Below are positions 47,543 through 56,814 of a DNA stretch of 64,000 bases, in pieces. Below the pieces are notes generated by a model. It was not told the DNA's origin. It saw nothing but the letters and a program-made list of their open reading frames with translations, and made no database searches. This DNA is from Fibrobacter sp. (GTDB lineage Bacteria > Fibrobacterota > Fibrobacteria > Fibrobacterales > Fibrobacteraceae), in contig JAGCPZ010000058.1 in the NCBI GenBank assembly GCA_017965445.1, positions 1 to 64,000 of the forward strand, read 5' to 3'. A program made the position numbers and the translations under genes. Positions within the stretch are counted from its first letter, which is position 1, and each line of letters starts with the position of its first letter.

Positions 47543-48349
47543 TCAGGAATGGAGCAGAGTCTCGTTCATGCTGCCGGTTCGGTAGCCCTGCAGGTCCAGC
47601 GACACGTACGCAAACCCGATGTTCTTGAAAGTCGCGAAAATCTGTTCGCGATTTTTTAGTACCGTATCGAAATTTTCGGGCAGCACCTCGATGCGAGCGA
47701 CGTTTTCGCCGTGGATGCGCACCCGCAGTTGCTTTATTCCCAATGTCCGCAAGAATTCTTCGCCTTTTTCTACCATACGGAGTTTCTGTTCCGTGATGGT
47801 TTCGCCATATACAAAACGGCTGGAAAGGCATGCGAACGAGGGCTTTTCGGCGGTCGGCAAGTTCAACTGCCTGGAAAGTTCCCGGATATTCGCCTTTGAA
47901 AACCCGCAGTCCCGCAGGGGGCTCCTGATTCCCAGTTCGGCGATGGCGCGGTGGCCCGGCCTGTAATCGCGATTGTCGTCGGTGTTGGAGCCTTCGCAGA
48001 TGTAGCGGAGCGAAAGCTCGTCGGCGACTTGCCCGATTAGGCCGAATACGGATTTCTTGCAGAGGTAGCAGCGGTCCTTGGGATTCTGCGCGAAGCCTTC
48101 GATTGAAAGTTCGTCGTGTTCGCGGACAACGTGGGCGATGTTTTCGCGGGCGCAAAAATCCTCGGATTCCCGCAGTTCCCTTTCCGGGAAGGATCTCTGC
48201 CGTACGGTCACGGCAACGGCGCGGTCGCCCAGCACATCGTGGGCGACTTTCAGCAGGAACGTGGAATCCACACCGCCAGAGAAAGCCACAGCGACGCTTT
48301 CCAGATTCTGCAGGTATGTTTTAAGCCGCTCTAGTTTTTCCTGAAGCAT
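47543..48349 (-). CDS. larE: ATP-dependent sacrificial sulfur transferase LarE
   Basis: LarE has a PP-loop (SGGVDS at about 24-29), the 'CYLCK' pair, 'YICEGSNTDDNRDYRPG', 'SPLRDCGFSK' and 'KPSFACLSSRFVYGETIT', the last with the cysteine that donates sulfur in Lar biosynthesis. It adds sulfur to the pyridine precursor of the nickel-pincer nucleotide. The ATG at 48349 overlaps the stop of the upstream aldo-keto reductase gene (TAATG). It is the last lar gene of the operon. Confidence 0.92.
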   Translation of the reverse strand: MLQEKLERLKTYLQNLESVAVAFSGGVDSTFLLKVAHDVLGDRAVAVTVRQRSFPERELRESEDFCARENIAHVVREHDELSIEGFAQNPKDRCYLCKKSVFGLIGQVADELSLRYICEGSNTDDNRDYRPGHRAIAELGIRSPLRDCGFSKANIRELSRQLNLPTAEKPSFACLSSRFVYGETITEQKLRMVEKGEEFLRTLGIKQLRVRIHGENVARIEVLPENFDTVLKNREQIFATFKNIGFAYVSLDLQGYRTGSMNETLLHS

Positions 48350-49776
48350 TAGCCACCGACCCGCTTCAAACTTTCGACATACGCGTCTATCTTGCGCAGT
48401 TCTTCGGGGATGTTCAGCCCCTGCGGGCACTTGGGACTGCACTGGTTGCAACCGGTGCAGTGGTTCGCCTGTCGCAGTTTCGGCACGCTTCTGTCGTAGC
48501 CTACCAGGAATTCCTTGCGGGCCTTGCGATAGTTTTCGTCATGGACGCCCGATGCGATACGGCCCTCGTTTACGCACTTGTTGTAGTGCACGAATATTCC
48601 CGGGATGTCGATGCCGTAGGGGCAGGGCATGCAGTACTTGCAATCGTTGCAGTTTACCGTGGGGTATTGCATCATCAGGTCCGCCGTGTCGAACAGGAAC
48701 TTGAGTTCTTCGTCGTTCAGGGGTTTTAACGGCGAATAGGTGCAGAGGTTATCCTGCAGGTGTTCCATGTAGGTCATGCCCGAAAGCACCGAGAGCACCT
48801 TGGGGTATGTTCCCGCGAATCGGAAAGCCCAGCTCGCCACGCTCGCTTCGGGGGCGCGCTGCTTGAGGCGTGCCACCACGTGGTCGTGGACGTTCGAGAG
48901 ACGCCCTCCCAGCAAGGGTTCCATGATGACTGAGGGAATATTGCGTTTCGCCAGTTCGTCGTAAAGGTATTCCGCGTTCACGTTGGCTGTCCAGCCCTTG
49001 TTTTCGGCGGCGTGTTTCCAGTCTAGGTAGTTCAGCTGAATTTGTACAAAATCCCAGTGGATTTCGTTGTGGAGACTGAGCAGGTAATCGAATACTTCCA
49101 CCTTGCCGTGGAACGAGAATCCGAGATTGCGGATGCGTCCTGCTTCGCGTTCCTTTTTCAGGAACTCGATGAGTCCGCAGTCGAAAAAGCGCTGCTTCAA
49201 AAAGGGAATGCCCGTGTCGCCGCCTACGTTGTGCATCAGGTAATAGTCGATGTAGTCCGTCTTCAGTTTTTTCATGGAGGTGCGGTACATTTCTACCGAG
49301 GCGTTGTAGAGTTCCTTACCCGTAAGGCCCGAGAGCGCCATCCTGTGGTTGCTCATCTTGGTGGCAATGTAGTAGCTGCTTCGCGGGTGGCGGCTGAGAG
49401 CGATGCCGGTAGCGTCTTCGGATTTGCCCTTCATGTAGGGTGGAGCCGTGTCAAAGTAGTTCACGCCGTGGGCAAGTGCGTAATCCACGAGTTTGTTCAC
49501 CATTTCCTGGTCGATTTCGCCCTCGTCGTTTGTGGGCAGGCGCATCATGCCGTAACCGAGTATTGATACCTTGTCGCCCTTTTCGGTCGTGCGGTAGGTC
49601 ATGGGGCCCGTGGGTTCCATGTTCGGCTTGGGGGCAGAGGCGGCGTCCTTCTCGTTTGCGAAAAAATTGCAGCCCTGTAGCAGGGTGGAACCCGCGAGTC
49701 CAGCGCCCAGCGTGCCGACTCCAGCCAGCTTGAGAAATTCGCGACGGTTGATTCCGTTGTTTTTTTCTTCGGCCAT
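48349..49776 (-). CDS. Tat-signal aldo-keto reductase with two [4Fe-4S] motifs, predicted lipoprotein
   Basis: The N-terminus 'GINRREFLKLAGVGTLGAG' is a twin-arginine motif (Asn for the usual Ser/Thr), followed by the lipobox 'LLQGC' at Cys36. An aldo-keto reductase barrel follows ('VNYFDTAPPYMKGKSEDATGIALS', 'DYIDYYLMHNVGG', 'GRIRNLGFSFHGKVEVFDYLL'), then Cys-rich segments 'CNDCKYCMPCPYGIDIPG' and 'CTGCNQCSPKCPQGLNIPEE'. A periplasmic location would deprive it of NADPH, so electrons may come through its clusters from the polyferredoxin encoded 12 bp upstream. Substrate unknown. The lipid anchor is inferred. Confidence 0.85.
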   Translation of the reverse strand: MAEEKNNGINRREFLKLAGVGTLGAGLAGSTLLQGCNFFANEKDAASAPKPNMEPTGPMTYRTTEKGDKVSILGYGMMRLPTNDEGEIDQEMVNKLVDYALAHGVNYFDTAPPYMKGKSEDATGIALSRHPRSSYYIATKMSNHRMALSGLTGKELYNASVEMYRTSMKKLKTDYIDYYLMHNVGGDTGIPFLKQRFFDCGLIEFLKKEREAGRIRNLGFSFHGKVEVFDYLLSLHNEIHWDFVQIQLNYLDWKHAAENKGWTANVNAEYLYDELAKRNIPSVIMEPLLGGRLSNVHDHVVARLKQRAPEASVASWAFRFAGTYPKVLSVLSGMTYMEHLQDNLCTYSPLKPLNDEELKFLFDTADLMMQYPTVNCNDCKYCMPCPYGIDIPGIFVHYNKCVNEGRIASGVHDENYRKARKEFLVGYDRSVPKLRQANHCTGCNQCSPKCPQGLNIPEELRKIDAYVESLKRVGG

Positions 49777-49788
49777 AAAAATCTCCTG

Positions 49789-51297
49789 TTACACCTTGCG
49801 GTGCATTTCGTGGCCTTCCACGTAAATCGCGCTTACGGGGCGGGCGGGGCAAAGGTTTTCGCAGGCGCCGCATCCGATGCAGCGTTCCGTGTTCACTACG
49901 GGAATCTTGCGGGAATTCGGATCGTCAGGATCCTGGGCCACCATCTGGATGGCTCCCGTGGGGCAGTGCCTTGCGCAGTTGCCGCATTCCTGATGGTCCC
50001 TGTTCACGATGCACAGGTCGAATTGCCATACGGCGTGGCCTATCTGCGTGGAAGACTTGTCGGCGAGGGGAATTTCGCGGATGGCCCCAGCCGGGCAGAC
50101 GGTGGAACAGCGGTTGCATTCGGGGCGGCAGTAGCCCTTCTCGTAACTCATAAACGGCTTGAGGTCGCGGCCCGCAAAAAGCACGTTGTTCTCGCAGTTC
50201 GCGATGCAGAGCCCGCAGGCGGTGCAATGGCTTTGCAGGTTCGCGTAGCTCTGGGCACCCGGCGGTACGATTTTGCCGAAACGTTCCGGCGCGACCTTGT
50301 CTTGAATCGGGGCGAGTCCGCCTTCGCCCTCGTCTTCGAGATTCACCTTGGCGCTGTCCTGTGCGCGAACGCCCGCAATCGAGCCTGCGGCAAGGACGGT
50401 GGCTAGTCCCAGGAATTTGCGGCGGGAAGTATCGACCTGCGGGGCTGAAGTTTTTTCGTCGCGCTTGTGGCCCGGGATTACGGGTGTCAGGCGGAGAGCG
50501 CCCTTGTTGCAGTTGCCGATGCAATCCATGCAGACGACACAGCGGCTATAATCAAATGTCCCGGACTTGGAATCGATGCAGGAACTCTTGCACTTGCGTT
50601 CGCACATCCCGCAGTGAATGCACTTGGATGTATCGACGACCGGGCGGAAGATGGCGAAACGGGAGATGAGCCCCAAGAAAGTCCCCACGGGGCAAACCGT
50701 GTTACAGTAGGCGCGTCCCTTGAAAAACGCCACGGCACCGATAATCACGAAGGTGGCGATAGCGATGCCCAAGGCGATGCCGCCTTTCAGCAAGACGTCC
50801 ACCTCATAGAACATGTAGCTGTCGAGGCGTTCGGCCATATAGGCAAGACCGTTGTTCGCAAGCTTGTAAATCGGCGAAAGGATGTAGGTGGCGATGCGTC
50901 CGTAGGCGCTATAGGGAGCGATGAGCGCTGCCGCCGGGAACGATGTTGCAATTCCTACGACAAACAGTGCGAAAATCCCGTAGCGGGGAATGCGTTTTTC
51001 GTTACTGAACTTGAACTTGCCGCGCTTGCCTTTTTTACCGCGGTTCCCGAGCCAGGAAAAGATATCCTGGAACACTCCCAGCGGGCAAATGACCGAGCAG
51101 TAGAGACGCCCGCATAGGAGCGTAAGCACCACTACGAATAAAATAGCGGCCACGTTCAGCGCGAGCACGGCGGGCAGAAACTGCACCTTGGCGAGCACGC
51201 CGAAATATCCCTGAAGGACTCCCGTGAAATCCAAAAACAGGAGCGTCACCAGCGTAAAGCAGATGAGCGCGAGGGTAATCCTGATTTTTCTCAGCAT
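49789..51297 (-). CDS. Membrane polyferredoxin, NapH/NapG-like fusion with internal Tat motif
   Basis: The first 220 residues resemble NapH/CcoG-type membrane ferredoxins: transmembrane helices and the repeated 'CGRLYCSVICPLG' and 'CNTVCPVG' loops. Two [4Fe-4S] motifs follow (Cys226-236, 253-263). At 291-297 stands SRRKFLG, a twin-arginine motif, followed by a hydrophobic segment ending 'AGVRAQ'. Four further Cys clusters lie at 358-368, 390-401, 438-445 and 473-483. This looks like NapH fused to a NapG-like periplasmic ferredoxin, probably moving electrons from the quinone pool. It overlaps larC by seven bases. Confidence 0.82.
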   Translation of the reverse strand: MLRKIRITLALICFTLVTLLFLDFTGVLQGYFGVLAKVQFLPAVLALNVAAILFVVVLTLLCGRLYCSVICPLGVFQDIFSWLGNRGKKGKRGKFKFSNEKRIPRYGIFALFVVGIATSFPAAALIAPYSAYGRIATYILSPIYKLANNGLAYMAERLDSYMFYEVDVLLKGGIALGIAIATFVIIGAVAFFKGRAYCNTVCPVGTFLGLISRFAIFRPVVDTSKCIHCGMCERKCKSSCIDSKSGTFDYSRCVVCMDCIGNCNKGALRLTPVIPGHKRDEKTSAPQVDTSRRKFLGLATVLAAGSIAGVRAQDSAKVNLEDEGEGGLAPIQDKVAPERFGKIVPPGAQSYANLQSHCTACGLCIANCENNVLFAGRDLKPFMSYEKGYCRPECNRCSTVCPAGAIREIPLADKSSTQIGHAVWQFDLCIVNRDHQECGNCARHCPTGAIQMVAQDPDDPNSRKIPVVNTERCIGCGACENLCPARPVSAIYVEGHEMHRKV

Positions 51298-52619
51298 TTG
51301 TCCTCCCGGTGGAACTTGCGCATGACCAGGTCGTGCATGTCGCGGATGGAAGTTTTGGCTTTTTCGGCCAGGGCCTTTACGTCGTCGAATTCGGGCTTTA
51401 CCCGCACCACGTTCCCGGTCGAAGACTTTTTGACGCGTGCCTTGCCGTATTCGGTTTCCACCTCGAAGAATTCCCGGTCCATGCAGTTCCGCTGTACGGG
51501 AATGCGACGGAGCCCTACCGTGGAGGTGTGCGTGAATATGGCGGTCTCGATTTGCGAAAGATGTTCACCGTCGGCGATGGCACGCAGAAGCACGCCGGGG
51601 CGGTTCTTCTTCATGAAGCAGGGAATGTAATGCACGTCGCGAGCGCCCGCCTCGAAAAGCTTTTCCATGGCGTACCCCAGTTCTTCGGGAGTGGAGTCGT
51701 CGATGTTTGCTTCCAATGCGTAAACGCTACAATCCGCGGGGCCGGAACCCTTGCCGGATTCCTCCTCGATAATCTGTACCCGCAAAAAATTCGCCCGGCC
51801 AAAGTCCCGCGTACCAAGCCCGATGCCGGTTTTTAGAATCTTGTAACCCGCGGGGAGCTTGTCGCTTGTCCGCAGTGCAGCCACGATGCCGATGCCCGTG
51901 GGCGTAACCATCTCGCCAGCCGTTTCTGTCGGGCGGAGAGCGATGCCGGCCGATTCCGCGATGTTCACCACCGCAGGCACGGGGACGGGCAACTTGCCGT
52001 GTTGCGTCTGCACGAATCCCGTACCTTCGTTCAGGCCCGTGACGATGCACCTGTCGATTCCCAGGTCATCTACCAGGACGGCTACGGACAAGATGTCGAT
52101 GATGGAATCGATTGCCCCGACCTCGTGAAAGTGAACTTCTTCGATTGCGACGCCGTGAGCCTTAGATTCGGCCTCGGCGATGATGCGGAAAATTTTCTTT
52201 GCGGTTTCAAGGGCACGAGGCGAAATTGCACCATTGTTTGCAGGGGATGCCGAAGTGCCTGCCGCACGGTCCAAAATCTCGTAAACCTCGGACAAATGGC
52301 GATGCTCATGATGATGGTGATGATGACCTTCATGACATTCTCTCGTCTCTCCTCTCTCGTCTTTCGTCTCGTTATGCTCCACATAACCTTCCTCGTGAGA
52401 ATGCACGTGGTCTGCGTCATGGCCGTGAACATGTACCGAAAACGATAGCCCCGCAATGCTGTAGCTGTTCGCGCGCTCCACATGGACGTGGACGCCATCC
52501 AGGTTCAGGCAGGCGATGGCCGCATCCAGTTTGTCGCGGGAAGCTCCCAATTCCAGAAGGGCGGCAACCGTCATGTCGCCGCTGATACCGCAAGAACCGT
52601 CGAGATAGAGTGTTTTCAT
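51291..52619 (-). CDS. larC: Nickel insertion protein LarC with His-rich insert
   Basis: LarC is a single 442-residue reading frame: 'YLDGSCGISGDMTVAALLELG', 'EEVHFHEVGAIDSIIDI', 'TPTGIGIVAAL', and the C-terminal 'NIDDSTPEELGYAMEKLFEAGARDV', so the frameshift known between larC1 and larC2 in lactobacilli is absent. It inserts nickel into the cofactor. Residues about 50-105 hold a His-rich run ending 'HHHHHHEHRHLSEV', partly encoded by a GACGAGAG-type repeat (52354-52369). The repeat is in frame; His enrichment could aid nickel binding. It is in the operon between larB and the polyferredoxin gene. Confidence 0.92.
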   Translation of the reverse strand: MKTLYLDGSCGISGDMTVAALLELGASRDKLDAAIACLNLDGVHVHVERANSYSIAGLSFSVHVHGHDADHVHSHEEGYVEHNETKDERGETRECHEGHHHHHHEHRHLSEVYEILDRAAGTSASPANNGAISPRALETAKKIFRIIAEAESKAHGVAIEEVHFHEVGAIDSIIDILSVAVLVDDLGIDRCIVTGLNEGTGFVQTQHGKLPVPVPAVVNIAESAGIALRPTETAGEMVTPTGIGIVAALRTSDKLPAGYKILKTGIGLGTRDFGRANFLRVQIIEEESGKGSGPADCSVYALEANIDDSTPEELGYAMEKLFEAGARDVHYIPCFMKKNRPGVLLRAIADGEHLSQIETAIFTHTSTVGLRRIPVQRNCMDREFFEVETEYGKARVKKSSTGNVVRVKPEFDDVKALAEKAKTSIRDMHDLVMRKFHREDKC

Positions 52620-52717: not shown

Positions 52718-53440
52718 TTATTTTATTTGCAGCATTCGGAGTGCGGCGATGGCGGCGCCAAAGCCGTTGTCTATATTCACGACGGTCACGCCCTCGGCAC
52801 AGGAATTCAGCATGGTGAGGAGTGCGCTAATCCCGTCAAAGGATGTACCGTACCCGACCGACGTAGGCACGGCAATGACGGGCGATTTCACGAGGCCCGC
52901 GATGACTCCCGGCAGGGCGCCTTCCATACCGGCGACAGCGATAACGATTTTCGATTTGCGGATATCCCCAATTTTGGAAAGCAGGCGGTGCAGCCCCGCA
53001 ATTCCCACGTCGAAATGGCGGTTGACCTTCACGCCGTAAAATTCCAGCGTCTGCGCGGCTTCTTCTGCGACGGGCAGGTCGGCTGTTCCTGCGCAGCATA
53101 CGGCTACGGGCCCGAGGTTCACGGCCCGTTTGAGCTTGCCAGCGGAGCGCCCGCGTTTCTGCTTGGCGGGAGCGTCACCCAAAAGCGAGATGACCCGCGA
53201 AATACTGTCGTACCGAATTTGTTCACCCGCATCGGTGATGAACTTTGCCTGCTCGGCGCTGCATTTTGTCCCGAGCACGCGGCAACCCTTTTCCCGGAAC
53301 TTCCGCAAAATCCTGAGCAACTGTTCGGGCGTCTTGCCTGCGCAATAAACGGCCTCGCCGGTCCCGGTACGCGCTTCGCGGTCAGTATCGAGCTTCGCAA
53401 AGCCCAGGTCTTCGTATTTCTGCTTTTGCTTCGGGGTCAT
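52718..53440 (-). CDS. larB: Pyridinium-3,5-biscarboxylic acid mononucleotide synthase LarB
   Basis: LarB has an N-terminal helical part ('KLDTDREARTGTGEAVYCAGKT') and a PurE/AIRC-like C-terminal domain ('VAVCCAGTADLPVAEEAAQTLEFYG', 'HRLLSKIGDIRKSKIVIAVAGMEGALPGVIAGLV', 'PVIAVPTSVGYG'). It carboxylates and hydrolyses nicotinate adenine dinucleotide in the first step of nickel-pincer synthesis. It lies 53 bp after tatC. Confidence 0.92.
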   Translation of the reverse strand: MTPKQKQKYEDLGFAKLDTDREARTGTGEAVYCAGKTPEQLLRILRKFREKGCRVLGTKCSAEQAKFITDAGEQIRYDSISRVISLLGDAPAKQKRGRSAGKLKRAVNLGPVAVCCAGTADLPVAEEAAQTLEFYGVKVNRHFDVGIAGLHRLLSKIGDIRKSKIVIAVAGMEGALPGVIAGLVKSPVIAVPTSVGYGTSFDGISALLTMLNSCAEGVTVVNIDNGFGAAIAALRMLQIK

Positions 53441-53493: not shown

Positions 53494-54423
53494 TTAGTAA
53501 GGTTTCCACTTGTCAGCGTCTTTTTCCGTACCGACCTGGAACTTGGAAGATGGCGCAGCAAAATCGATTTCGTCGGTTGCGGGGGCTGGCGTTTCGGCAA
53601 CGGCATTCGTTGCATCTGTCTGCGCAGGGTCTGATTCCGGCGCGGTTGATGTTGAATCGTTCCGTACAAGGTTCGGGGCGTTTTCGGGATGGACCTCTTT
53701 TTGCGAGCGTCCCTTGTACCGCCTTGCCGCGAGCAGTCCTGCTTCAAAAAGCAGGTAGGTGGGCGTGCCAAGCATCAGCTGGCTCACGATATCGGGCGGA
53801 GTGAGAAGCGCCGCGAGCACGAGAATCGCGACCACCACGTAGGGGCGCTTGCTGCATACGGTTTCGTAGCTCACGATGCTCGCACGGATAAGCGCGTAGG
53901 TCACCAGCGGAAACTGGAACATGCAACCGAAGGCAAGGGAAAGCCAGAGCGCGAGTGTCACCAGGTTCGATACGCCAAAGACGGGCTGCAACGATGTACC
54001 CGCGAAACTCATGCCGAACTGCACGATTAGCGGGAAACACACAATCAGGCAGAACGCGACACCCGCGATGAACAGGAGCGATGTCAGGCAAACGATGGAA
54101 CGGATAAAGCGTTTCTCGTTATCGTATAGCGCGGGGAGCACGAACTGCCACATGTTCCAAGCGATAACGGGCGAACAGACGACAACGTCCAGGAGGGCCG
54201 CAATTTTCAATTGCAGCAGGAACACTTCCATGGGGGAAAAATAGTGGAGCGTGAGCCCGCCCTGCAATGCAATCTGTTCGCAAAAAAAGTCCAGCAGGTA
54301 GGGAGATGCGATAAACAGCGGAACGATGCCAATGCCAAGAGCGATAAACGAACGGATTAGCGCCCGCCGGAGCGCCTCCAGGTGCGAAATCAGCGTCGCC
54401 TCTTGATCCTGCTTGCTGGTCAT
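53494..54423 (-). CDS. tatC: Twin-arginine translocase subunit TatC, with C-terminal extension
   Basis: The first 225 residues contain six transmembrane helices and TatC markers ('LISHLEALRRALIRSFIALG', 'YFSPMEVFLLQLKIAALLDVV', 'NMWQFVLPALYDNEKRF', 'LLTPPDIVSQLML'). TatC binds the twin-arginine motif. The last about 75 residues are a Pro/Ala/Asp-rich soluble tail ('STAPESDPAQTDATNAVAETPAPATDE'), not usual in TatC. It lies between tatA and larB, in an operon that encodes three Tat substrates, so a dedicated translocase is plausible. Confidence 0.9.
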   Translation of the reverse strand: MTSKQDQEATLISHLEALRRALIRSFIALGIGIVPLFIASPYLLDFFCEQIALQGGLTLHYFSPMEVFLLQLKIAALLDVVVCSPVIAWNMWQFVLPALYDNEKRFIRSIVCLTSLLFIAGVAFCLIVCFPLIVQFGMSFAGTSLQPVFGVSNLVTLALWLSLAFGCMFQFPLVTYALIRASIVSYETVCSKRPYVVVAILVLAALLTPPDIVSQLMLGTPTYLLFEAGLLAARRYKGRSQKEVHPENAPNLVRNDSTSTAPESDPAQTDATNAVAETPAPATDEIDFAAPSSKFQVGTEKDADKWKPY

Positions 54424-54612
54424 AGTGAGTGGTTAGTGATTAGTGGTTAGGATCGCGGTTACCGAGTCATCCTTCAAGTGGTTGGTGGTTAGTGGTTGGT
54501 GGTTAGGATTGCAAATAGAACGTTTTTTTACATTCCTGTTTACTAGCCTCTGTTTACTAACCACTAAATTCATTCCTGTTTACTAACCACTGTTTACTAG
54601 CCACTGTTTACT
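54424..54612. repeat. Paired GTTAGTGGTTGG / CTAACCACTG repeats between tatC and tatA
   Basis: A G/T-rich block (54424-54510) faces a C/A-rich block (54530-54612) with a short centre, so the gap can fold into one long hairpin. It separates tatC and tatA by 184 bp and reaches the tatA stop codon. Confidence 0.7.
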
Positions 54613-54805
54613 GCTCACTCTTTTCAGCGGCCTTCTCGGCCGTCTTCTGCAGGTCTTCGGCTTCTTCCTTTAGCGCTTCCTTCGCCTTCTTGTACTCATT
54701 TTGGGCCTTGCCCAATGAACGGGCCAGTTCCGGAATGCGCTTGGCCCCGAACAGGAGCAGAACAACGAGAACAATCAGGATAATTTCGGGGATTCCAAGT
54801 GACAT
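54608..54805 (-). CDS. tatA: Twin-arginine translocase subunit TatA
   Basis: The 65-residue protein has the TatA layout: hydrophobic helix 'IILIVLVVLLLFGAKRIPELARSLGKAQNEYKKA' split by the FGAKRIPEL hinge, then a long acidic-basic amphipathic helix. It polymerises around TatC to form the pore. It lies directly before the DUF362 gene, itself a predicted Tat substrate. Confidence 0.9.
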   Translation of the reverse strand: MSLGIPEIILIVLVVLLLFGAKRIPELARSLGKAQNEYKKAKEALKEEAEDLQKTAEKAAEKSEQ

Positions 54806-54835: not shown

Positions 54836-55840
54836 TTACAGTTCAATGATTCGGTACTTGCGGTTGCCCATCTTCAGTTTTTCCATGGCGGTCAGCTGGT
54901 GCAGGCCCTCGCGGGTCTCGATGCGCTCCTTAAGGTCATGAAGTTCCTTAGGCGGGAGTTTATAAACCATATCCACGCTGGCCTGGTCCACCGCCAGAAT
55001 GTCGGTGGAAGCGAGAATCCCGATGTCGCGGCACTTGGGTTCTTCAGCGGCAACGCCCGCGCAGTCACAATCCACGGACATGCGGCGCAGCACGTTGATA
55101 AAGCAGATGTGTCCCTTGAAAAAGTCGCAGGTCGCCTTCGCGGAATCGGCCATGGTTTCCATGAACAGGGCCCCGGTCGTTCTCCAGCCGGCTTCGCCGC
55201 CCGCTTCCATCTTGGTGGGGCCACCCTTTACGTACTCGTGAATCATCTTTTTCCCAAGCTGTCCGCCCGCGCAACCGATGGCGATGTTCTTCATGGAACC
55301 GCCGAAACCGCCCATGGTGTGGCCCTTGAAATGGGTGAGCACAATCATCGAATCGTAGTTCTTGATGTGTGCGCCCATGGACATTTCCTTGAAAATCAGG
55401 CCGTCCTTTACGGGGAGCATCACTTCGCCTTCTTCATCCATGATATCTACGTCGCAGAAGGTCCAGCCGTTCACCTTCAAGGTTTCGCGGTGCTGTTCAG
55501 TGGTGTAGCGGGCGCCCTCGTACCAGGTGTTGGTCTCCACAATTTTCGAATCCGGGACCTGCGCCTGAAATTCCTTGACCCACTCGCGGGGCAAGATGTT
55601 CGGGCCGTGAGGTTCGCCGGTGTGCAGCTTGATGGCCACGCGACCGGTAATGCCCTCGTTGATTTTCTTGTACAACTTGATAAGGCCAGCGGCACTCAGG
55701 TCCTTGGTGAAATAGACGTTCGAGACATCCTTGCCGCTCTCTTTCTGTTCCATGGAACCTCCTTTTGCAAAGGCGGGAGTGAATACAGCAGAAGCGAGTG
55801 CTGCTACGCCTGCGGTTTTTAAAAAGTCTCTTCTATCCAT
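54836..55840 (-). CDS. Tat-exported DUF362 protein, candidate nickel-pincer enzyme
   Basis: The N-terminus MDRRDFLKTAGVAALASAVFT is a Tat signal, ending near 'AFAKGG'. The DUF362 core contains 'AIKLHTGEPHGPNIL', 'IVLTHFKGHTMGGFGGSMKN' and 'DCDCAGVAAEEPKCRDIGIL'. His174 and Lys184 are ten residues apart, and His201 follows 17 later; in LarA (from memory) His174, Lys184 and His200 hold the nickel-pincer cofactor and active site. DUF362 proteins are usually assigned to Fe-S or unknown roles. The co-located larBCE and tatAC genes make a cofactor-loaded, exported enzyme plausible, but this is inference. Confidence 0.8.
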   Translation of the reverse strand: MDRRDFLKTAGVAALASAVFTPAFAKGGSMEQKESGKDVSNVYFTKDLSAAGLIKLYKKINEGITGRVAIKLHTGEPHGPNILPREWVKEFQAQVPDSKIVETNTWYEGARYTTEQHRETLKVNGWTFCDVDIMDEEGEVMLPVKDGLIFKEMSMGAHIKNYDSMIVLTHFKGHTMGGFGGSMKNIAIGCAGGQLGKKMIHEYVKGGPTKMEAGGEAGWRTTGALFMETMADSAKATCDFFKGHICFINVLRRMSVDCDCAGVAAEEPKCRDIGILASTDILAVDQASVDMVYKLPPKELHDLKERIETREGLHQLTAMEKLKMGNRKYRIIEL

Positions 55841-55851
55841 AAGGTTAGTGG

Positions 55852-56169
55852 CTAGTGATTAGTGGTTTGAGGCAATCTACGCCATTTGCCTTTCGGGTCT
55901 TTCCAGAGAAGCACGCCAAGCCAGATGACAAGCCCGAGCGCCACCACGGAGAACCCGAGGAAAGAGTCGTTCAGCATGTCGGCTGCGGCGGGCGTGAAGT
56001 ATTCCGCCTTGACTTCCGCGTATTCGAACACGGCGTCGATAAACCACATGAGAGATGCTCCCCAGTAGAGGTAGCACAGCGTGGAGATTTTCATTTCGTC
56101 CTTTGCACCTCCCCTGTACCAGAACACGGTGGCGACGACTGCGGCAAAAACGGTAATGAGTAAAGTCAT
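55852..56169 (-). CDS. Small membrane protein
   Basis: The 105-residue protein has three hydrophobic helices ('TLLITVFAAVVATVFWY', 'CYLYWGASLMWFIDAVFEY' and 'GFSVVALGLVIWLGVLLW') and a short basic C-terminus. It lies 11 bp before the DUF362 gene and 9 bp after the next membrane gene. No family recognised. The position suggests a membrane partner of the exported redox proteins. Confidence 0.7.
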   Translation of the reverse strand: MTLLITVFAAVVATVFWYRGGAKDEMKISTLCYLYWGASLMWFIDAVFEYAEVKAEYFTPAAADMLNDSFLGFSVVALGLVIWLGVLLWKDPKGKWRRLPQTTNH

Positions 56170-56178
56170 GGAAACCTC

Positions 56179-56589
56179 CTACTTGTCCTGGACCTTTACG
56201 GTGGCGGGTTCTGCCGAAACCATCCGGCTACGTACAAATTGCACCAACGCCCAGGAAAGTGTGACGAACGCGGCCATGGATGTGCCCACTGTCGCCATCT
56301 CGTGATAAACCTCACTCAGGGCTTCCGGGTCGGTAGCCGCCGTGAGGAACGGGTAGAACGGCTGGATTTCGCCATGCCACAGGTGTTCGAAGGCAAGCAG
56401 GACAGAACCACCCCACAAAAGCTTGGAAAGAGACTTTAGCTTGACGTAGAAAGGTTGGTGAGCGTCGGCGGAAATGGCTGTTTCCAGGGCCTTGCCTTGG
56501 GCTTCGACCTTTTTACTGCGGTGCTCCAGCACGATGTTGACGATTGTAACGATGGCAGCTTCGGCTGCGGGGACCACAAAACAGGCCAT
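56179..56589 (-). CDS. Membrane protein, first gene of the lar-tat operon
   Basis: The 136-residue protein starts MACFVVPAAEAAIVTIVNIVLEHRS, preceded by AAAGGAG, a strong ribosome-binding site. Hydrophobic segments include 'LLWGGSVLLAFEHLWHG' and 'GTSMAAFVTLSWALVQFV'. It is the first of about ten genes read in the same direction. A promoter should lie in 56590-56760, but I cannot assign it. No family recognised. Confidence 0.7.
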   Translation of the reverse strand: MACFVVPAAEAAIVTIVNIVLEHRSKKVEAQGKALETAISADAHQPFYVKLKSLSKLLWGGSVLLAFEHLWHGEIQPFYPFLTAATDPEALSEVYHEMATVGTSMAAFVTLSWALVQFVRSRMVSAEPATVKVQDK

Positions 56590-56814
56590 AGGAACTCCTT
56601 TCGTATAATTTCTGTAAGAAATATAATACTTAGAGTCAATCCCAGGTACATTTTTTTTGAAAAAACAACATAGCAAACCATTTCCCAAACGAATCATATA
56701 AACTATGTATATTCCAAAACAGTACAAAACAAAAACAAGACTACCATTTTTCATTTAAATTAAAGAGCTTTTCTATAAAAAAAATCTATATGACACATCT
56801 TGACGACCTTCGCG

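Follow-up and report, generated by a model that had tools for sequence, protein, structure and literature searches.

The minus strand of the window (the whole 64,000-nucleotide stretch of Fibrobacter sp. DNA analyzed here) encodes a polytopic polyferredoxin (PFD) that is a further member of the dual Sec/Tat polyferredoxins, likened to the described protein Q1NSB0 on the basis of architecture. As judged from the sequence and its surroundings, PFD is probably inserted by Sec and Tat in turn and serves as a relay between the membrane and exported Fe-S partners, chiefly a co-encoded aldo/keto reductase (AKR). The dual Sec/Tat polyferredoxin design itself was already published in 2017 (PMC5449189), and the interpretation offered as new in the earlier note was thus in print; what looks new is the conserved pairing of this class with Tat-exported redox proteins, the AKR here and a DUF362 protein elsewhere, along with the location of PFD among genes that may also produce and export a nickel-cofactor enzyme.

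Topology and motifs of the polyferredoxin

The earlier note had described an ORF carrying SRRKFLG at residues 291-297 after transmembrane helices and ferredoxin motifs; this is confirmed, the strand, which it did not state, being minus. The features of the gene are as follows.

49789..51297, minus strand: polytopic polyferredoxin (PFD), NapH-NapG-like fusion, 502 aa, ATG at 51297
51223..51291, minus strand: TM1, residues 3-25, predicted dG -1.90
51100..51168, minus strand: TM2, residues 44-66, predicted dG -2.15; CxxxCP (67-72) follows
50917..50985, minus strand: TM3, residues 105-127, predicted dG +0.06; a Lys/Arg-rich loop precedes
50722..50790, minus strand: TM4, residues 170-192, predicted dG -1.38; then CxxxCP (198-203)
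50509..50622, minus strand: cytoplasmic ferredoxin motifs, residues 226-263, from sequence and alignment
50407..50427, minus strand: internal twin-arginine motif SRRKFLG, residues 291-297, from sequence and alignment
50362..50424, minus strand: RR and TM5 (Tat-type helix), residues 292-312, predicted dG +1.29
49849..50226, minus strand: predicted exported NapG-like domain, four [4Fe-4S], residues 358-483, 16 invariant Cys

Helices were called with our own hydropathy and insertion-energy scans and charge bias, and a sanity series of Leu/Ala peptides was run alongside the energy scan. By these scans, a weakly hydrophobic helix (292-312) begins right at the RR motif. Cysteines ahead of RR lie at 62, 67, and 71, at 198 and 202, and in motifs at 226-240 and 253-263; after RR there are 16, in four motifs within residues 358-483. 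Seven Lys/Arg occur within 15 residues after the segment 65-83 and four within 15 residues before the TM5 core, and because of this placement we predict that the N terminus is inside and RR is cytoplasmic. A location of RR on the wrong side of the membrane had been set beforehand as a refuting test, and both the charge bias and the helix count place the motif in the cytoplasm. The 15 residues past the predicted TM5 hold a single Lys among several acidic residues, and one Arg lies inside the helix end.

The Pfam matches of PFD are solely to Fe-S families of the 4Fe-4S kind, and the best 60 of 153 matches in a PDB profile search were solely ferredoxin-type proteins. An AlphaFold model built from 18 sequences was poor (mean pLDDT 54.2). 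Two trivial origins of the motif or its domain were rejected. A chance origin is contradicted by the appearance of [STDN]RRxF[LIVM] in only 352 of 100,000 shuffles of PFD and by conservation of the RR column beside a variable linker; a separate NapG translated from an internal start would need a Met between residue 257 and RR, and there is none.

Conservation across homologues

PFD was aligned with homologues from its own phylum, from Bacteroidales, and from one other bacterium (L099); removal of matches of at most 95 bits or at most 300 aa, together with identical copies, reduced 72 sequences to 56, leaving out the split protein L016/L064 and the fragment L025. Non-conservation of RR was the other refuting test set in advance, and it brought no refutation: RR is kept in 50/56 homologues, and the remaining six (L020, L024, L029, L069, L070, and L072) have KR, with RR occurring one residue downstream in L020 and L070. 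All 16 exported cysteines are invariant in 56/56, and the cytoplasmic cysteine motifs (67-263) are nearly so, whereas the linker ahead of RR differs greatly in length. The predicted dG of TM5 is above zero in 54/56 homologues (median +1.81), and that of TM1 in just 2/53 (median -1.90); at least one Lys/Arg is present in the 15 residues past TM5 in every one of the 56.

In genome G043, a close homologue of PFD (L016/L064; L064:1714-3246, G043:C7) is broken by a TAG within the linker, and larB and larC follow it. Its NapG-like half has an ATG 12 bp past the TAG, with GGAG ahead, and reads MEKNQTQTNENLKTDTKTRREFVAG..., with TRREFVAG at its N terminus. The ribosome site and its position speak for two genes, although an assembly error is possible. 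The half shows the segment that is internal in PFD serving as what is predicted to be an ordinary N-terminal Tat signal peptide.

Comparison with known systems

By a genome search for polytopic proteins with RR before the last transmembrane domain (TMD), Tooke et al. (2017) found a polyferredoxin of delta proteobacterium MLMS-1 (Q1NSB0) and its homologues, termed it a NapH-NapG fusion and a dual Sec/Tat protein, and reported that export of MBP and AmiA reporters depended on RR and on Tat (PMC5449189). Q1NSB0 has five TMDs with RR directly before TMD5, three predicted cytoplasmic and four predicted exported [4Fe-4S] sites, an insertion energy that is positive for TMD5 and negative for TMD1, and a positive patch after TMD5 (PMC5449189). 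The window PFD likewise has four TMDs before RR and one after, with the N terminus predicted inside; its energies for TM5 (+1.29) and TM1 (-1.90) repeat the published pattern, and its cysteines fit three plus four putative cluster sites. It differs in that its positive patch after TM5 is weaker and in that it comes from another phylum than the proteins in Table 5 of Tooke et al., which lists Latescibacteria, Nitrospirae, Caldithrix, Thermoplasmatales, Anaerolinea, Anaeroarcus, and MLMS-1 (PMC5449189). A search of that paper for terms on AKR and operons found none. The proposal in the earlier note that the first half is inserted by Sec and the last ferredoxin domain exported by Tat is thus supported, the same reading having been tested on a protein of the same architecture (PMC5449189), and for PFD it stands as a prediction.

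The comparison with a NapH-NapG fusion, also made earlier, fits the architecture: NapH and NapG comprise the same two modules, a Sec-inserted four-helix Fe-S protein and a Tat-exported four-cluster ferredoxin, but the window PFD is one polypeptide and no nap reductase was found in the genome. The profile matches are ordered NapH-like then NapG-like, with best stretches at 173-270 (TIGR02163) and 331-493 (NF007012), and all are below their cut-offs, both for NapH (TIGR02163, 79.2 vs 213.05 bits; NF007013, 70.3 vs 234) and for NapG (NF007012, 54.5 vs 269 bits; TIGR00397, 49.5 vs 178.85). The actinobacterial Rieske protein QcrA (Sco2149) resembles what is predicted for PFD in using Sec and then Tat, with RR within a polytopic protein; unlike QcrA, PFD has no Rieske [2Fe-2S] domain, and its cargo is a ferredoxin.

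Gene neighborhood and origin of the PFD-AKR pair

The genes on the minus strand lie in the order DUF362, tatA, tatC, larB, larC, PFD, AKR, and larE.

54836..55840, minus strand: DUF362 protein with N-terminal Tat signal, candidate exported nickel-pincer enzyme (H174, K184, H201)
54608..54805, minus strand: TatA, 65 aa, adjoins tatC
53494..54423, minus strand: TatC, profile matches
52718..53440, minus strand: LarB, nickel-pincer cofactor synthesis, profile match
51291..52619, minus strand: LarC, profile match; stop overlaps PFD start (ATGCTGA)
48349..49776, minus strand: aldo/keto reductase (AKR) with N-terminal Tat signal, lipobox-like Cys36, and C-terminal ferredoxin domain, from profiles and alignment
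47543..48349, minus strand: LarE, profile match; start overlaps AKR stop (TAATG)

PFD and AKR are 12 bp apart, and the larC/PFD and AKR/larE frames overlap. The count of four genes from PFD to tatC given previously needs correction to three, larC and larB alone lying between. Beside DUF362, the small ORFs 55852-56169 and 56179-56754 have no Pfam match and may be further parts of the lar-tat locus; a relative of the former (63%) adjoins DUF362 in L049, and relatives of the latter (44-59%) do so in L036, L038, L040, L047, and L049.

Three members of the genus (G004, G012, and G016) have the same locus with larC-larE but without the PFD-AKR pair, and PFD is present in only 1/80 genus genomes, the window's own. 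The nearest copy (74%) is in G072, of the same family, at a similar locus. In a tree of 54 PFD rows (L021 and L096 having been dropped; L099 is the bacterium outside the phylum), the window and G072 proteins cluster with 22 Bacteroidales proteins, apart from the other members of their own phylum, with a group support of 92/93, which is under the program's mark of 95/80. The order PFD-then-AKR of the window and G072 is that of 12/14 Bacteroidales loci with AKR and is reversed in 14/14 other own-phylum loci with AKR. It is likely, on this sequence comparison, that the pair was gained horizontally. A misbinned contig was rejected as the explanation, relatives of DUF362-tatC-larB-larC-larE being found in the same order, 57-95% identical, in other genus members.

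Tat machinery

The genome containing the window has one TatC and, beside it, one TatA above the cut-off. Within a 150-genome sample of the phylum, TatC was found in 33/36 genomes with a PFD match (E<=1e-30) vs 75/114 others (Fisher P = 0.0025); the three PFD genomes in which it was not found (G041, G071, and G079) are all incomplete drafts. Among the genomes holding loci L076-L099, 23/24 have TatC. The tatC gene lies at most 5 kb from PFD in G000, G072, G095, G128, G113, and G013, and likewise in loci L076 and L099.

The aldo/keto reductase and other PFD branches

An AKR on the same strand adjoins PFD in 31/58 loci (30/57 by clustering). The N-terminal RRxF motif of these reductases is conserved, 30/31 have the lipobox-like Cys, and all eight ferredoxin cysteines are present in 31/31. 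The D/Y/K/H tetrad is also intact (D109 and Y114 in 31/31, K140 and H182 in 30/31), so the AKR could still use NAD(P)H. In a PDB search, aldo/keto reductases matched over its N-terminal part only. An adjacent AKR is absent from 15/46 loci of the AKR-type PFD branch, some of which have short flanks and many of which come from one Bacteroidales lineage, and the AKR is therefore not obligatory. A LysR-type regulator lies directly after PFD, with no adjacent AKR, in the Bacteroidales loci L079, L082, L083, L085, L086, L094, L096, and L098, and in L077 the adjacent AKR was called only as a fragment.

The other two PFD branches (12 loci) have an AKR in 0/12 and an adjacent same-strand Tat-signal DUF362 in 8/12 (L020, L069, L070, L072, L026, L029, L073, and L074), some with KR. 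In the distant bacterium RUG14173 (L099:6902-14384), AKR, PFD, tatC, larB, larC, and larE occur together, and no DUF362 was found there. In a literature search from which subscription journals were mostly absent, we found no earlier report in which an exported AKR is paired with a polyferredoxin.

DUF362 as a candidate nickel-pincer enzyme

The nickel-pincer cofactor on which LarA depends is the product of LarB, LarC, and LarE (PMC11796402). For LarA, a catalytic His174, a cofactor-bearing Lys184, and a Ni ligand His200 have been described (PMC7583248, PMC12611868), and DUF362 and LarA belong to a common Pfam clan (PMC11770544). LarA itself (Lar_N, PF09861) was found in 0/80 genus genomes; the window's own genome is 71.9% complete, so absence from it alone would be weak evidence. 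LarC is present in 18/80 genus genomes and Tat-signal DUF362 in 21/80, including 18/18 of the LarC genomes and only three others (Fisher P = 3.7e-15, a value that ignores relatedness). Tandem DUF362 copies, about 73-74% and 66-68% identical to that of the window, occur in the genus members G006, G010, G076, G082, and G156.

H174, K184, and H201 are invariant in 12/12 rows of a DUF362 alignment (A2), and DUF362 resembles LarA in having this H-x9-K-...-H motif. Profile comparison of all rows with LarA-family proteins of the phylum gave a probability of 93.9% (E 2.6e-8), H174 and K184 falling on the LarA His and Lys and the third His only approximately; 20 column shuffles scored no higher than 20.3, compared with 59.9 for the real profiles, and removal of the signal peptide left the score at 60.1. 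The three pairings built from fewer rows fell short of significance (1.0-2.4%), yet they set H174 and K184 on the same LarA residues. D72, R75, and H108 of LarA have no counterpart at the aligned DUF362 positions. DUF362 differs from LarA in its Tat signal and in the lack of a Lar_N (PF09861) match, Pfam giving only DUF362 and TAT_signal. No PDB sequence matched the DUF362 profile with an E value under 0.03; the 29 matches did not include LarA, and the best of them covered the Tat signal segment. An AlphaFold model from the single sequence (mean pLDDT 34.8) was too poor for use.

The tracking of larC, the H-K-H motif, and the absence of LarA from the genus suggest that DUF362 may be an exported nickel-pincer enzyme. 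We propose tentatively, giving it somewhat less than an even chance, that the products of this operon build a nickel-pincer enzyme outside the LarA family, supply it with its cofactor, and export it, with the horizontally gained PFD-AKR pair wired in. LarB, LarC, and LarE would build the cofactor, DUF362 would bind it via K184/H201, and the co-encoded TatA/TatC would export the folded protein; PFD and the lipoprotein AKR, inserted between larC and larE, would connect the membrane to a redox step outside the cytoplasm. No proposal of DUF362 as a nickel-pincer enzyme, or of a Tat-exported nickel-pincer, was found in the literature, subscription journals being mostly outside the search.

Proposed mechanism and alternatives

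Sec would insert TM1-4 of PFD with the N terminus inside, so that the NapH-like Cys motifs and the two ferredoxin motifs stay cytoplasmic. Sec would pass over TM5, which is weakly hydrophobic, and the C-terminal four-cluster domain would fold before Tat recognized the internal SRRKFL and exported it. The finished protein would most likely carry electrons across the membrane between the quinone pool or a cytoplasmic ferredoxin and exported Fe-S partners, of which the conserved pairing points to the Tat-lipoprotein AKR, with its own bis-[4Fe-4S] domain, as the chief. We infer this function because an exported, cluster-bearing reductase adjoins a transmembrane ferredoxin relay.

It is improbable that RR is incidental and PFD Sec-only, with the last ferredoxin domain remaining in the cytoplasm as an electron-input module. 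TM5 is weakly hydrophobic (+1.29) and might not span the membrane, and the CxxxCP regions may be miscalled as helices; nevertheless, RR or KR is kept in 56/56 homologues beside a variable linker, in the G043 relative this segment forms a predicted Tat signal at the N terminus, tatC co-occurs with and is linked to PFD, and the neighboring proteins bear Tat signals. A periplasmic nitrate reductase fed by PFD as a NapGH-like quinol dehydrogenase is hardly to be expected: no named families come closer to the two halves than NapH and NapG, but the scores are far under the cut-offs (79 vs 213 and 54.5 vs 269 bits), and the 71.9%-complete genome has no match to molybdopterin oxidoreductase (PF00384), on which count nitrate reductase was rejected as the partner.

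The identity of the partner allows more doubt. The true partner here could be the Tat-exported DUF362 of the lar-tat locus, the AKR being a second client or a passenger; PFD, AKR, and DUF362 all lie in one operon in the window, PFD of the other branches adjoins Tat-signal DUF362 in 8/12 loci and AKR in none, and LarB/LarC are also near PFD in G043 and L099. However, the genus members L038, L040, and L047 have the DUF362-tat-lar locus without PFD, and the window PFD falls in the AKR-paired branch. We regard DUF362 as a doubtful candidate for the role, though a serious one, and retain the AKR as the probable chief partner of the Sec/Tat-inserted relay.

Significance

With the window PFD and its homologues, the small, tested class of Sec-to-Tat proteins gains lineages and a naturally split form, and the candidate exported partners help in finding the function of the class. 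The lar-tat-DUF362 context may matter more than PFD itself. If DUF362 is indeed the client of LarB, LarC, and LarE, nickel-pincer chemistry would no longer be confined to LarA or to the cytoplasm, and the functionally uncharacterized DUF362 would become a second nickel-pincer enzyme family, exported and with a testable cofactor.
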